64,000 bases of DNA from contig CADCCF010000003.1 in the NCBI GenBank assembly GCA_902799835.1, forward strand, positions 1 through 64,000, given 5' to 3'. The stretch comes from an uncultured Pseudomonadota bacterium (lineage in GTDB: Bacteria; Pseudomonadota; Alphaproteobacteria; RF32; CAG-239). Under the pieces are notes generated by a model. It did not search any database. It was given only the letters and a program-made list of their open reading frames with translations, and was not told where the DNA came from. Shown piece after piece: positions 13,241 through 63,349 of this stretch. Made by a program: the position numbers and the translations under genes. Every line of letters starts with the position of its first letter. Within the stretch, counting starts at the first letter, position 1.

Positions 13241-13370
13241 TAAAAAACTTGGAAAATGGTGTAGATAAAGTCAAAATAAGAAGAGAGAAAATTTTAGCGT
13301 AGTAAAGCCTACGTGAATTTTCTCTCTTTCGCTATTTTGGCTCTAGATGCGCCATTATACGAGTTTTTTA
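13241..13370 (-). repeat. Palindromic 3'-end element E2 (over the fliE stop)
   Basis: TAAAAAACT (13241-13249) pairs with AGTTTTTTA (13362-13370), CAAAATA (13272-13278) with TATTTTG (about 13333-13339), AGAGAGAAAATT (13282-13293) with AATTTTCTCTCT (13316-13327), and CGTAG (13298-13302) with CTACG (13309-13313). The stop codon of fliE lies in the outer arm. In fliE sense the core TCACGTAGGCTTTACTACG matches E1 except for paired changes in the stem. Same orientation to its gene as E1. Confidence 0.85.
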
Positions 13371-14687: not shown

Positions 14688-14999
14688 ATGAAAGATAATA
14701 GCACAAATAGACTTAAAAACAATGCAACATCAAATTTGTCCACAGATGAAAAATATGCTGTGGCTTTAGGCTATGACCAGGCAAAAGACAATGCGCCGAA
14801 AGTATTAGCCAAAGGTCAAGGCGAAATAGCCGAAAAAATTATCGAAATAGCCCGCGCTAACAATATTGAAATCCGCTCAGATGCTGACTTATTGCAAATC
14901 TTAAAAGCGGTTGACATCAACCAAGAAATCCCCCTCGAGGCTTTTGCCGCCGTCGCCGAAATCATCTCTTATATCTATCAGCAAAACGGCAAAATGTAA
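14688..14999 (+). CDS. FlhB-like C-terminal-domain protein (FhlB type), 103 aa
   Basis: The protein corresponds to the cytoplasmic C-terminal domain of the flagellar export-switch protein FlhB: AVALGYDQAKDNAPKVLAKG, then AEKIIEIARANNIEIRSDADLLQILKAVDINQEIP, then AVAEIISYIYQ. It lacks membrane segments and the autocleaving NPTH motif, as in stand-alone FlhB homologues. The start at 14688 has a GGAG upstream; an upstream ATG (14607) gives an N-terminus unlike the family. It is divergent from flgB, consistent with a role in flagellar export. Confidence 0.88.
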   Translation: MKDNSTNRLKNNATSNLSTDEKYAVALGYDQAKDNAPKVLAKGQGEIAEKIIEIARANNIEIRSDADLLQILKAVDINQEIPLEAFAAVAEIISYIYQQNGKM

Positions 15000-15028
15000 T
15001 AATCATACTAAAACAAACGAATCGGTAA

Positions 15029-15129
15029 TTCGGATAATAAGAAAAGTCAAGCTAAGCGGCAGGAGCGTATTAAGCGTGTGTGACTTAGCTTGGCTGAATT
15101 TTTCTGTATTAGATGACTCACTATCCGAA
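15029..15129 (-). repeat. Palindromic 3'-end element E3 (over the rsmB stop)
   Basis: TTCGGATA (15029-15036) pairs with TATCCGAA (15122-15129) and TCAAGCTAAG (about 15047-15056) with CTTAGCTTGG (about 15084-15093). In rsmB sense it starts with GAAAAGTTCGGATAG, which codes for the last residues and the stop. The apex (15056-15083) has the same length as in E4 and E5 but is the most diverged. Confidence 0.75.
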
Positions 15130-16335
15130 CTTTTCTAATACACAAATAAAAAATCCATCAGTTCCGGTCTTATAAGGTGACAACCTCAACCACCTTTCAT
15201 CATCATGCGGATAAGGCGCGGCAATTTTGCCCTCCCATAATGTTTTCATATTAACCGGCTTAAACTCGCTGTGCACAACCAAAAATTGCTCGATTTGCTT
15301 TTCATTTTCATCCGCTAAAACCGAACAGGTGATATAAATAATTCTCCCGCCGATTTTGGTTTTAGTCGCCGCAATTTCCAACAACTCCGCCTGAATTTTA
15401 GTCAAACCGAACAACTTTTCTTTAGTTAATCTAAATTTGGCATCCGGCGCCCTCCGCCAAGTTCCGGTTCCCGAACAAGGTGCATCTAATATAAATCGGT
15501 CAAAATCTTTATCAGAATCAGCAATTATCTCGGTTAGCTCTATATTATGCACACCAAGCCGTGCCATCCGCGGCTTAATAGCCTCCAAGCGTTTTGCTTC
15601 AATATCATAAGCCAAAATATGTCCGTTATCTTTCAGGATATTGCTCAAAGCCAAAGATTTACCCCCGGCTCCGCAACAATAATCAATTATCTTGTGTTCC
15701 GGCTTGGCATCAATCAAAATTGCCGCCAATTGGCTGGCCTCATCTTGCACATCCAAATAGCCGTCTTGCCAAGCCATACAGTTATTTAAAACCAATCGCT
15801 CGGCTATATGCAAACAATAGGGTGAATATTGCCCTTTGATGCTTTCAATTCCCTCAGCTTTGAGCTTTGATTGTAATTCATCTGACGAAATTCCGTGGGC
15901 TCTGACATCGGTTTGGGCTTGCCCGTTCAGAGCTTTACAAAATTCCAAATTACCGATTTTCTCATACAACCATTGTGGACACTCCGCCTCCACCCAATTG
16001 GGATAAGGTTCTTCATTCTCTTTTTCCAACCAAACACGCTCATCCTCACTTAACGGAGCTACTCCATAGGTTGAATTATCAAAAACTTCTTCTAATCTGT
16101 CTTTGGCAAAATACAGCAAAATTTTGCGTGGCTCAGAACTTTTGGCATCAAAAGTCAACTTGCAACGATTGCGGATAATCTGCCAAGTTGTATCAACAAT
16201 AAACTTACGATCTTTGGAGCCGATATATTTACGCGCCCTGATATAATCATTAATAATCTTATCGGCCGGTTGTTCATCTTTGAACACTTCCGTTATAATC
16301 TCTAATATTGCTTGATAACGTGCGCCTGACTGCAT
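15121..16335 (-). CDS. rsmB: 16S rRNA m5C methyltransferase, RsmB/NOL1-NOP2-Sun family
   Basis: SAM-dependent RNA cytosine-C5 methyltransferase. 404 residues: N-terminal helical NusB-like region, then the catalytic core with the SAM motif DYCCGAGGKSLALSN, motif IV DAPCSGTGTW containing one catalytic Cys, and motif VI YITCSVLADENE with the second Cys. Best match is RsmB, which modifies 16S C967, but other family members cannot be excluded. The last four residues and TAG stop (EKFG) come from palindrome E3, so the original C-terminus may have been replaced. Confidence 0.88.
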   Translation of the reverse strand: MQSGARYQAILEIITEVFKDEQPADKIINDYIRARKYIGSKDRKFIVDTTWQIIRNRCKLTFDAKSSEPRKILLYFAKDRLEEVFDNSTYGVAPLSEDERVWLEKENEEPYPNWVEAECPQWLYEKIGNLEFCKALNGQAQTDVRAHGISSDELQSKLKAEGIESIKGQYSPYCLHIAERLVLNNCMAWQDGYLDVQDEASQLAAILIDAKPEHKIIDYCCGAGGKSLALSNILKDNGHILAYDIEAKRLEAIKPRMARLGVHNIELTEIIADSDKDFDRFILDAPCSGTGTWRRAPDAKFRLTKEKLFGLTKIQAELLEIAATKTKIGGRIIYITCSVLADENEKQIEQFLVVHSEFKPVNMKTLWEGKIAAPYPHDDERWLRLSPYKTGTDGFFICVLEKFG

Positions 16336-16373
16336 TTGATACTATCCTCTCAATTCAACAAAAACACTGACTC

Positions 16374-16502
16374 GAAAAAGTTCGAAGAATTAGACAGATA
16401 ATTAAGAATTAAAATTGGCGAAAGCGGAGTTTACTATAAACGTAAATGAGCATTTCGCAAATTGTGAATTCTTCAATTAGCTGTCAATTATGCGAACTTT
16501 TC
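16374..16502 (-). repeat. Palindromic 3'-end element E4 (over the rlmE stop)
   Basis: GAAAAAGTTCG (16374-16384) pairs with CGAACTTTTC (16493-16502), GACAG (16393-16397) with CTGTC (about 16481-16485), AAGAATT with AATTCTT, and GGCGAAA with TTTCGC nearer the apex. The apical segment 16424-16451 is the same length (28 nt) as that of E5 and identical at 21 positions; one pair in its inner stem changes from G-C to T-A. Confidence 0.85.
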
Positions 16503-17185
16503 TTATAACCTATTGCTACAAAATAGGTTTCCGGTGATTCCTTGCGGCTTGCCGATGGTTTGCAATGTGCTACTTTTTCAAAATTGCGCTTGGCATCAGC
16601 CAACAATTCTCCCTCGGCACCGCCCTGAAAAACTTTAGCTATAAAAATGCCGCCTTTTTTTAAAACTTGCTTGGCAAAATCATAAGCCGCTTCCACCAAA
16701 GCAATCGTGCGCAAATGGTCAGTTTGTTGATGTCCGATGGTGTTGGCTGCCATATCACTCATCACCACATCAGCCTCACCATCCAACAAAGCTTTCAACT
16801 TATCAGCCGCATCATCGGAGGTAAAATCCTGACATATCAGCTGTGCTCCTTCAATCGGTGCAGTTTCCAAAATATCAATACCGATAACCTTGCCCTGCCC
16901 CTTGTTGCGCATAACTGCAATCTGCGTCCAACCACCCGGAGCACACCCCAAATCGACGATATTTTTACCCTTGCCTAAAAAATGATATTTTTCATCCAGT
17001 TGTATCAACTTAAATGCTGCTCTTGAGCGATAACCCAATCTTTGTGCCTCGCTGACATAAGGATCATTCAACTGACGCAACAACCATTGATTTGAAGATT
17101 TTTTCTTGTATTTCGCCGTCTTTACCTTTACTGCTAAGGTGTGACGACCTTCAACCAATTTCGCTGATTTAGTCGCTTTAACCAT
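16484..17185 (-). CDS. rlmE: 23S rRNA 2'-O-ribose methyltransferase RlmE (FtsJ/RrmJ)
   Basis: Methylates the 2'-O of U2552 in 23S rRNA, a late 50S assembly step. About 233 residues with a basic N-terminal extension. The K-D-K-E tetrad is visible: Lys in SRAAFKL, Asp in VVMSDMAAN, Lys in FIAKVFQGG and Glu in SPETYFVA; the SAM motif is VDLGCAPGGWTQ. The ATG at 17185 overlaps the end of the upstream ppx gene; a TTG 18 bases earlier is possible. Its last residues (KKSSHN) and stop are encoded by palindrome E4. ppx-rlmE pairing is common in Alphaproteobacteria. Confidence 0.95.
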   Translation of the reverse strand: MVKATKSAKLVEGRHTLAVKVKTAKYKKKSSNQWLLRQLNDPYVSEAQRLGYRSRAAFKLIQLDEKYHFLGKGKNIVDLGCAPGGWTQIAVMRNKGQGKVIGIDILETAPIEGAQLICQDFTSDDAADKLKALLDGEADVVMSDMAANTIGHQQTDHLRTIALVEAAYDFAKQVLKKGGIFIAKVFQGGAEGELLADAKRNFEKVAHCKPSASRKESPETYFVAIGYKKSSHN

Positions 17186-18131
17186 GTTTTTTATCTCTCT
17201 CAATCAAATTCGCAATTATTGCATCTTTGGCACTTTTCAACGAAGCTGTGATATTATCGGCATCAAGTTTTTGAGCAATTCGTTCAAAAATTTCCACCGC
17301 TGCCATGAATATCGGAGCTCTGGTTTCACCAATACAAGGATTATTTGCCATTTCCGCAACCGACTTACCGCAAAGTTCGTTTATAACACTGTTCATCGCC
17401 TTTTGCGTTATGATATGCCCATCCTCATCCTCGCGCACATATTTTGTCTTTTTTTCAATCATTGCTACCAATCGTAAAGCTGTTGATGAGGTTGCCACAA
17501 AACTTATATCATCTGCTTTCGGCATAACGAGCCCGTCAAAAAAATTATCCAAATACTCATCAACTTTGGCCTGCAAATTTTGTGCTTTTACGGCATCATA
17601 TTCTTGCAGGCCGAATTCCTCTGCCCCATTGCGAGCACCATAAGGAATTGACACCGTTTTAATTAACTCCGGTTTTGCTTTGTTATAAGCTAAAGTAACC
17701 TCTGTTGAACCACCACCGATATCCCAAATAATCAAATACGGCGTTTTACCTCTGACATGCTCAGATGCCCCTTGCAAATTAAGTTCGGCTTCTTCCTGAC
17801 TATCAATTATTTCCAGCCTGATTCCGCTCACCTTTTTAATCTCATCAATAAAATCTCGACCATTTTTCGCTATGCGGCAAGCTGCGGTGGTTATTGCGCG
17901 TAGATTTTTCTCCTCAACCCCAAAATCATCCAAAGATTTTTTAATTTTTACAAAAGCATCTTTCGCCCGAGCTATGGCTTCCGGCGTTATACACCCTTTG
18001 GCTTGGCGCATTCCTTCCGCCAAACGCGTGGAATAATTCTCAGCCCACAAAGTCTTTCCGCATTCATTGCAAATCAGCAAACGACACGAATTAGAACCCA
18101 AATCTATGGCTGCGTAGTTTCTATTTGTCAT
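17178..18131 (-). CDS. Ppx/GppA-family phosphatase, second tandem copy
   Basis: Exopolyphosphatase / guanosine pentaphosphate phosphatase family, actin-like ATPase fold. About 317 residues from MTNRNYAAIDLGSNSCRLL; further motifs are AITTAACRIAKN, IEIIDSQEEAELN and LIIWDIGGGSTEVTLA. The chosen start overlaps the stop of the upstream paralogue, which gives tight coupling. Only the Ppx/GppA catalytic module is present; the C-terminal HD-like extension of E. coli Ppx is missing. Substrate (polyphosphate or pppGpp) cannot be told from sequence. Confidence 0.9.
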   Translation of the reverse strand: MTNRNYAAIDLGSNSCRLLICNECGKTLWAENYSTRLAEGMRQAKGCITPEAIARAKDAFVKIKKSLDDFGVEEKNLRAITTAACRIAKNGRDFIDEIKKVSGIRLEIIDSQEEAELNLQGASEHVRGKTPYLIIWDIGGGSTEVTLAYNKAKPELIKTVSIPYGARNGAEEFGLQEYDAVKAQNLQAKVDEYLDNFFDGLVMPKADDISFVATSSTALRLVAMIEKKTKYVREDEDGHIITQKAMNSVINELCGKSVAEMANNPCIGETRAPIFMAAVEIFERIAQKLDADNITASLKSAKDAIIANLIERDKKHG

Positions 18132-21182: not shown

Positions 21183-21254
21183 GTACCGAAAGCTCGGATA
21201 TTGCGTCTAATACAAAGAAACTCACTTGGCGTAGTGCACAAAAGAAGTACATGA
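21183..21254 (-). repeat. Half-copy of palindromic element E5
   Basis: These 72 bases repeat 21277-21348 with two differences and a period of 94. The copy contains one arm plus the apex (GCGTAGTG...TACATGA) but not the closing arm, so it is a truncated element or duplication product. Confidence 0.95.
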
Positions 21255-21281
21255 ACCCAAATAATTTTACAGTATAGTACC

Positions 21282-21389
21282 GAAAGCTCGGATATTGCGT
21301 CTAATACGAAGAAACTCACTTGGCGTAGTGTACAAAAGAAGTACATGAGCCAAGTGAGTTTCAAGTAGTAGACCAATAGACGAGCTTTC
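21282..21389 (-). repeat. Palindromic 3'-end element E5 (after rpoC)
   Basis: GAAAGCTCG (21282-21290) pairs with CGAGCTTTC (21381-21389), GTCTA with TAGAC, and GAAACTCACTTGGC (21311-21324) perfectly with GCCAAGTGAGTTTC (21349-21362); TGTAC and GTACA close the apex. It begins two bases after the rpoC stop and likely forms the 3' end of the rpoBC mRNA. Confidence 0.9.
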
Positions 21390-21391
21390 AA

Positions 21392-62489: not shown

Positions 62490-63338
62490 ATGTTGAAAAA
62501 ATTGGTTGTTTTTTTTAGTTTTATATTGCTTCTGTCTGCTTGTTCACAAGAAGAGGCTGAAAATCATCCTACAACTCCTTTGAGCATAACGACAGTAAAT
62601 GGTGATATTCGCTTCAATGTTGAAGTTGCTCAAACTCCTGATGAATTACAAAAAGGTCTGATGTACCGCACCGAAATGCCTTTAACCAATGGCATGATTT
62701 TCAGCATTTATCCTGTACGTCCGGTAGCTATGTGGATGAAAAACACCCAATTATCACTGGATATGATTTTTGTTGCTCCTGATGCCACTGTTAGCATGAT
62801 TAAGGAGCATACAACTCCGCTGTCCGAAGATAGAATCATCTCCCGAGATCCTGTACGCGCTGTTATTGAAGTTCCTGCTGGTAATGTTATGCGTTATAAC
62901 ATTAAAGTCGGTGATAAGGTACAACATGCCATTCTCAACAACATGACCTCCCTTTCTGAAGAACCTGAGCCAATGAATATCAATGGTCCGGTTATCCCTA
63001 AAGGTCCTAATGCTCCAGGTGATGGTCCGGTTATTCCTAAAGGCCCTAATGCTATCGGTGGCGATGGTCCGGTTATTCCTAAAGGTCCTAATGCTATCGG
63101 TGGTGATGGTCCGGTTATCCCTAAAGGTCCTAATGCTCCAGGTGATGGTCCGGTTATTCCTAAAGGTCCTAATGCTCCAGGTGATGGTCCGGTTATCCCC
63201 AAAGGTCCTAATGCTCCAGGTGATGGTCCGGTTATCCCCAAAGGTCCTAATGCTCCCGGTGATGGTCCGGTTATCCCTAAAGGTCCTAATGCACCGGTTC
63301 CGGTACCAATGCCGATTCCCGCCCCTAACGCGGAATAA
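62490..63338 (+). CDS. DUF192 lipoprotein with eight C-terminal [10 protein letters not shown] repeats
   Basis: 282 residues: lipobox LLSAC near residue 18, then a DUF192 domain (about 35-150: [50 protein letters not shown]), then a long Pro/Gly tail of eight near-identical 13-14-residue repeats and a short [12 protein letters not shown] end. The DUF192 function is unknown. AAGGAAAG precedes the ATG. Confidence 0.88.
62982..63296 (+). repeat. Coding tandem repeat, eight units of 39 or 42 bp
   Basis: Units read [13 protein letters not shown], two as [17 protein letters not shown] differences are mostly silent third-base changes (ATT/ATC, CCT/CCC), so the peptide is selected while unit number can vary. 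It is a coding minisatellite, not a CRISPR array. Confidence 0.95.
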
Positions 63339-63349
63339 TTCTCAAAAAA

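Follow-up and report, generated by a model that had tools for sequence, protein, structure and literature searches.

The window analysed here, a stretch of 64,000 nucleotides from the genome of one of the uncultured gut/rumen Alphaproteobacteria (G000, 1.5 Mb), encodes two neighbouring rRNA methyltransferase-like proteins, rlmE and rsmB, and the 3' end of each gene runs into an imperfect palindrome (Table 1). In gene sense both palindromes start with GAAAAGTTCG, and the open reading frames bear out the first-pass annotation, which had read this start as EKFG-stop in rsmB and, in another frame, as KSSHN-stop in rlmE. The last codons of rsmB are GAA AAG TTC GGA TAG, giving a C-terminus ...VLEKFG that is closed by the element's own TAG (15121-15123, offset -15 from the left end of the element), and those of rlmE are AAG AAA AGT TCG CAT AAT TGA, giving ...GYKKSSHN closed by the element's TGA (16484-16486, offset -19).

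Table 1. Coordinates in the window of the rlmE and rsmB genes, their palindromes and further copies of the family
Feature	Positions	Strand	Basis or remark
Family copy 4 nt past a stop codon	588..716	+	Model, 61 bits
Second-subfamily copy directly at the fliE stop	13242..13369	-	Model, 65 bits; left end -2 nt from stop
Degraded family copy at the rsmB 3' end	15010..15135 (left end 15135; tail partly deleted)	-	Covariance model, fold
rsmB, 404 aa, 16S rRNA methyltransferase-like	15121..16335	-	ORF; relatives align up to residue 402
Stretch of 39 nt between rlmE element and rsmB ATG, with Shine-Dalgarno-like GAGAGGAT	16336..16374	-	Not in G007/G040, where the genes abut
Palindromic element at the rlmE 3' end	16375..16502 (left end 16502, right end 16375)	-	Covariance model, fold, absence in G007 and G040
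rlmE, 23S rRNA methyltransferase-like	16484..17203	-	ORF; relatives align up to residues 228-232 of 233
Third-subfamily copy 1 nt past a stop codon, then partial tandem repeat (21183-21257)	21281..21390	-	Model, 74 bits

Both elements fold more strongly than dinucleotide shuffles (z -3.9 for the rsmB element, z -5.4 for the rlmE element). The rlmE element scores 107 bits with a covariance model whose training alignment included this copy, and the rsmB element, which was outside the training set, scores 30.8 bits (E 3.8e-6, the E-values of this model being rough). The decamer GAAAAGTTCG is not itself diagnostic of the family, since it had 6 genome matches against 5 for the reversed control. A search of Rfam returned no known family at the rsmB/rlmE site at E<=1, and a simple terminator scan of 14900-16700 found none at either gene end; instead of the GC-rich stem, short loop and U tract of a classic intrinsic terminator there are long hairpins, which in 150 of 195 copies of the family end in a run of at least four T. 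Near the right edge of the window (62983-63339) a coding repeat of 39 nt also recurs seven times in phase.

C-termini in relatives

The closest complete comparisons for rlmE are G007 (96% identical) and G040. Both lack the element, their proteins end in GYKKEA and GYKKES, and the rsmB ATG follows directly after the stop; rlmE and rsmB nearly abut in most other relatives too. In G000 the order is rlmE ending GYKKSSHN, the palindrome, 39 nt with a new Shine-Dalgarno-like sequence, and then rsmB, and by this comparison four residues (S-S-H-N) and the stop of G000 rlmE derive from the element. Given its absence from G007 and G040 and the close spacing of the two genes elsewhere, the simplest reading is that the element was gained in the G000 lineage, the alternative being a precise loss in both G007 and G040. 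Heads of the family also occur at the same place of rlmE in G005 (...KKVRLTGI), G017 (...KKVRLADS) and G039 (...KRERITDD).

At rsmB the proteins end in LEKFG (G000), LEKLV (G007) and LKKLG (G040). Because element-free relatives already end in VLE(K/R) followed by one to three variable residues (LERLY, LEKKF, LERKA, etc.), the E-K of G000 is ancestral and just F-G-stop is element-derived. The same site holds an orthologous but different palindrome in G007 and a remnant with its middle deleted in G040, so this insertion predates the split of the three species. The proposal that the palindromes replace native C-termini thus stands for rlmE, where SSHN-stop takes the place of the relatives' ending, but at rsmB it extends to the last two residues and the stop alone. 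Equally divided was the idea that the element brings stops in several frames. In the rlmE copy 26 nt suffice to close all three, whereas over 60 nt the rsmB copy closes a single frame, that of rsmB itself.

Other conserved genes are also touched. In five species the smpB 3' end (L218, L223, L260, L261, L278) has a C-terminal tail K-x-R-I/L-M/K... that is read from the head AAAnnnCGTATAATGG. The SmpB tail is functionally important in general, which leaves a choice between a head that mimics it and an element that originated there. In two genera rplO, the gene for ribosomal protein L15, ends in GGSVKLV or GGKVNLI (L184, L331, L348), near the GGKVTLA of element-free G038.

Anatomy, spread and mobility of the family

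The family consists of imperfect palindromes of ~127 nt. By covariance model, 31 of the 35 genus genomes carry copies (at most 37 matches in one genome, including some scored on both strands), as do 90 of 100 genomes sampled across the order; the order sample overlaps that of the genus, and copies occur in all 15 genera sampled. Reversed-pattern controls in the first scan gave zero matches, and a search of the open literature found no published description of the family. The left side has a variable outer arm, typically (T)AAAAnnCG, then a conserved head, TCTAGCTGGTGACTAATACAGAAA or TATAATGGGTNACTAATACAGAAT, and then a variable inner stem; this leads to a conserved apex, TCAYGTAC-n6-GTACRCT, and a complementary right half ending CGnnTTTT. 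The mismatches and bulges of the palindrome are conserved as well. At least two further subfamilies have the apex TCAYGTA...TACRCT in common, and a loose search pattern recovers it in 170 of 195 copies. The heads are rich in stops: at least two frames are closed within the first 30 nt in 169 of 194 copies, so that for the family at large the expectation of stops in more than one frame held, and all three frames are closed in 46, against 13% in shuffles.

Pairing is closely kept while the stems vary. Among 18 aligned copies from the genus both sides have changed in 34 of 45 base pairs, the changes in the arms being almost all of the Watson-Crick kind, 95% of cells are paired (97.9% in the outer helix), and no shuffle or slide control reaches the observed covariation. 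A fold of the sense RNA would nevertheless be a poor candidate for the main constraint, since sense-strand G-U pairs are not in excess: among 5384 aligned arm positions in 195 copies, 90 arm mismatches are of the sense G-U type and 116 of the antisense type. The scarcity of single-sided G-U intermediates points to pairing at the DNA level, or to joint renewal of both arms, rather than to selection on the sense RNA, and from these alignments we infer that pairing may be maintained on DNA, at or before transposition.

Two variants of the structure were seen. Copies at the ftsK 3' end in G000 and G040 (L182, L275) have identical outer arms and apex and differ in the middle block, on both arms at once, much as a swap of a paired segment would leave them. 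At L074 and L088 the heads pass not into their own inner stem but into a different repeat, TGTCATGCCCG...AACGAACGAAGTGAGTG...TTAGGCATCTTC.

Genes that are unrelated to one another carry copies that are 94-98% identical, outer arms included, and the similarity sets in at the left end; this indicates that the family has been mobile. With its non-coding, multi-copy units of ~127 nt, terminal inverted repeats, and near-identical copies at unrelated sites together with presence/absence differences, it has several features of a MITE. A TA lies at the left junction; counting against this reading, no clear or consistent target-site duplication was seen on the right, and no transposase was found. Of 47 tandem pairs of neighbouring copies, 40 have the more intact, higher-scoring copy nearer the stop (p=1e-6), the covariance score being a mere proxy for copy age. 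In two nested cases, a G000 copy at the L185 gene and lolE in G007, an older copy at the stop has been entered or overlaid by a younger one. This polarity fits repeated insertion at the stop, and selection preserving the stop-proximal copy predicts the same picture. In G013, G012, G040, G007 and G050 several copies are no more than a few hundred bases from a contig end, and the hairpins therefore probably interrupt the assembly of short reads from these uncultured bacteria.

Position relative to stop codons

The left end of the element has a same-strand gene stop within -30 to +8 nt in 130 of 164 non-tandem copies, as judged on loci taken from the best-scoring matches with mechanical, simple ORF calls (87 of 104 loci from the genus search and 43 of 60, in other genera, from the order search). 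These 130 copies span 78 gene families and are non-independent, but the effect is not carried by a few genes. Right ends lie near a same-strand stop in 2 of 95 genus loci and 0 of 53 order-search loci, and the orientation relative to the gene 3' end is fixed. Of 127 copies in testable spacers, 111 are stop-anchored, where uniform insertion in random orientation would give 8.6. The 34 copies that are not stop-anchored in this ORF-based test include some that come after other repeats.

Most anchored copies (109 of 130) lie within -5 to +8 nt of the stop, and several of these stops are clearly native, as in Ssb (...DDDIPF), PolA and RecA. The stops at 109 junctions are TAA (94) or TAG (15) and never TGA, which closes 44 of 291 neighbouring genes (15%; p=4e-7). 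A stop inside the element occurs in about 20 copies, typically at offsets of -15, -25/-26 and -19 (rlmE), which correspond to TAG/TAA in the head and to TAA within CTAATAC. Both rsmB and rlmE belong to this minority; replacement of the C-terminus, which the first-pass annotation saw as the outcome of insertion, is real at rlmE but is not the rule in the family.

Interpretation and comparison with known systems

We consider it likely that the palindromes at rlmE and rsmB belong to a mobile, MITE-like element of ~127 nt that lands at gene 3' ends. At rlmE the insertion lies a few codons upstream of the native stop, with the head giving the new one. More generally, the preferred target may be a TA-type stop codon or, immediately past it, AT-rich 3' sequence. 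The least secure step is a putative role for the resident copy in place of the native transcription terminator, and counter to it the rlmE copy sits inside what relatives have as a two-gene operon. A further proposal, to which we give somewhat less than even chances, is that the insertion machinery recognises gene 3' ends at TA-type stops in sense orientation, new units by the stop pushing older ones downstream and so building layered arrays throughout the order. An element that lands on a stop codon does the host gene almost no harm, and this would account for the spread of the family through compact 1.5-Mb genomes. In this family mobile DNA has repeatedly rewritten the last residues and terminator region of conserved genes, namely rlmE, rsmB, rplO, yebC and smpB. 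If the targeting is real, it raises the question of what marks a gene 3' end for the insertion enzyme.

Elements that are now immobile, inherited vertically as terminator or mRNA-stabilising hairpins under fast concerted evolution, would also follow stops and keep their pairing. The same genes bear copies in many species (seven loci in one family, five lolE-like, five infB-like), the elements stand where native terminators would be, and the best-preserved member of a tandem pair is usually the stop-proximal one, all of which fits such a history. We nevertheless think it unlikely, because copies at unrelated genes reach 98% identity even with their outer arms counted, the nearest relatives have empty sites at rlmE, tsf, recA and one further gene, and the rlmE-rsmB operon junction has been invaded. 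Those empty sites bear as well on a very improbable variant in which a small mobile core inserts into the loops of intrinsic terminators, the outer arms being the split halves of the native hairpin. It would account for the position after stops and for the A and T tracts of the terminator-like outer arms, and the fliE terminator AAAAACTCG...CGAGTTTTT of the element-free outgroup G038 does match the G000 arm. All four sites contradict it, however: where orthologues of tsf, recA and the third gene lack the element, an ordinary terminator stands at the stop or a short way past it, and its arms do not resemble those of the elements, while relatives have no terminator at the rlmE site. In addition, the same outer arms travel with near-identical copies to unrelated genes.

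The positional bias could instead be a matter of survival, with insertion at random, copies within genes lost, and those at gene ends persisting through the stops in their heads. The richness of the heads in stops agrees with this, as do the insertions shortly before a stop that replaced the C-terminus. On such a view the intergenic DNA on the right, with a median of 174 nt up to the next gene, ought to accept insertions just as well, but 111 of the 127 copies are at the left stop, and survival predicts neither the lack of TGA at 109 junctions nor the fixed orientation; we regard this account as improbable.

Several established systems were compared with the MITE-like element that we favour. 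A REP/RAYT system was rejected, the Y1 transposase (PF01797) being found in 8 of 35 genomes and absent from G000 and from 27 of 35 overall. Integron attC sites are also imperfect palindromes at gene 3' ends in fixed orientation, with the structure kept while the stem varies, but matched RYYYAAC / GTTRRRY boxes occur in 0 of 195 copies, and the present elements, with variable arms around a conserved apex, show the opposite pattern to attC. The integron integrase model TIGR02249 was above its cut-off in 0 of 35 genomes, and sub-cut-off matches also appeared in all 14 control genomes. Rickettsia palindromic elements are alphaproteobacterial palindromes of 105-146 bp that touch conserved housekeeping genes (PMC2229807); they hold the frame open and are translated within proteins, whereas the present heads close frames and the protein ends at the element, with no in-frame fusion.

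The replacement of C-termini by small palindromes is already known; anchoring this strict across a whole order we did not find described. The enterobacterial ERIC (IRU, RU-1) resembles the present family in its length of 127 bp, imperfect palindrome and TA at the termini, and in one case, an amidase gene, insertion removed the normal stop codon (PMC2759123). These elements are reported as ORF-carrying intergenic repeats, and stop-codon anchoring was not found described for them. In Coxiella burnetii, QMITE insertions at gene 3' ends supply C-terminal residues (PMC5896051). They lengthen reading frames (e.g., by 33 residues of EnhC), whereas the heads described here close frames fast, mostly at the native stop.

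Like YPAL / RU-2 of Yersinia, the family is a miniature, multi-copy palindromic insertion with a strong hairpin that lies near stops. De Gregorio is said to have described, in 2006, YPAL insertions close downstream of stop codons that overlap terminator-like sequences, and insertion near stop codons is the trait seen here in 130 of 164 copies. YPAL is ~168 bp long (cited in PMC2229807). By description it belongs to another branch of the phylum and differs in length and termini, whereas the present elements combine stop-codon-exact anchoring, never on TGA, with polar tandem arrays. On the best reading of these comparisons, anchoring on stop codons appears much stricter in this family than in YPAL or in the QMITE of Coxiella.
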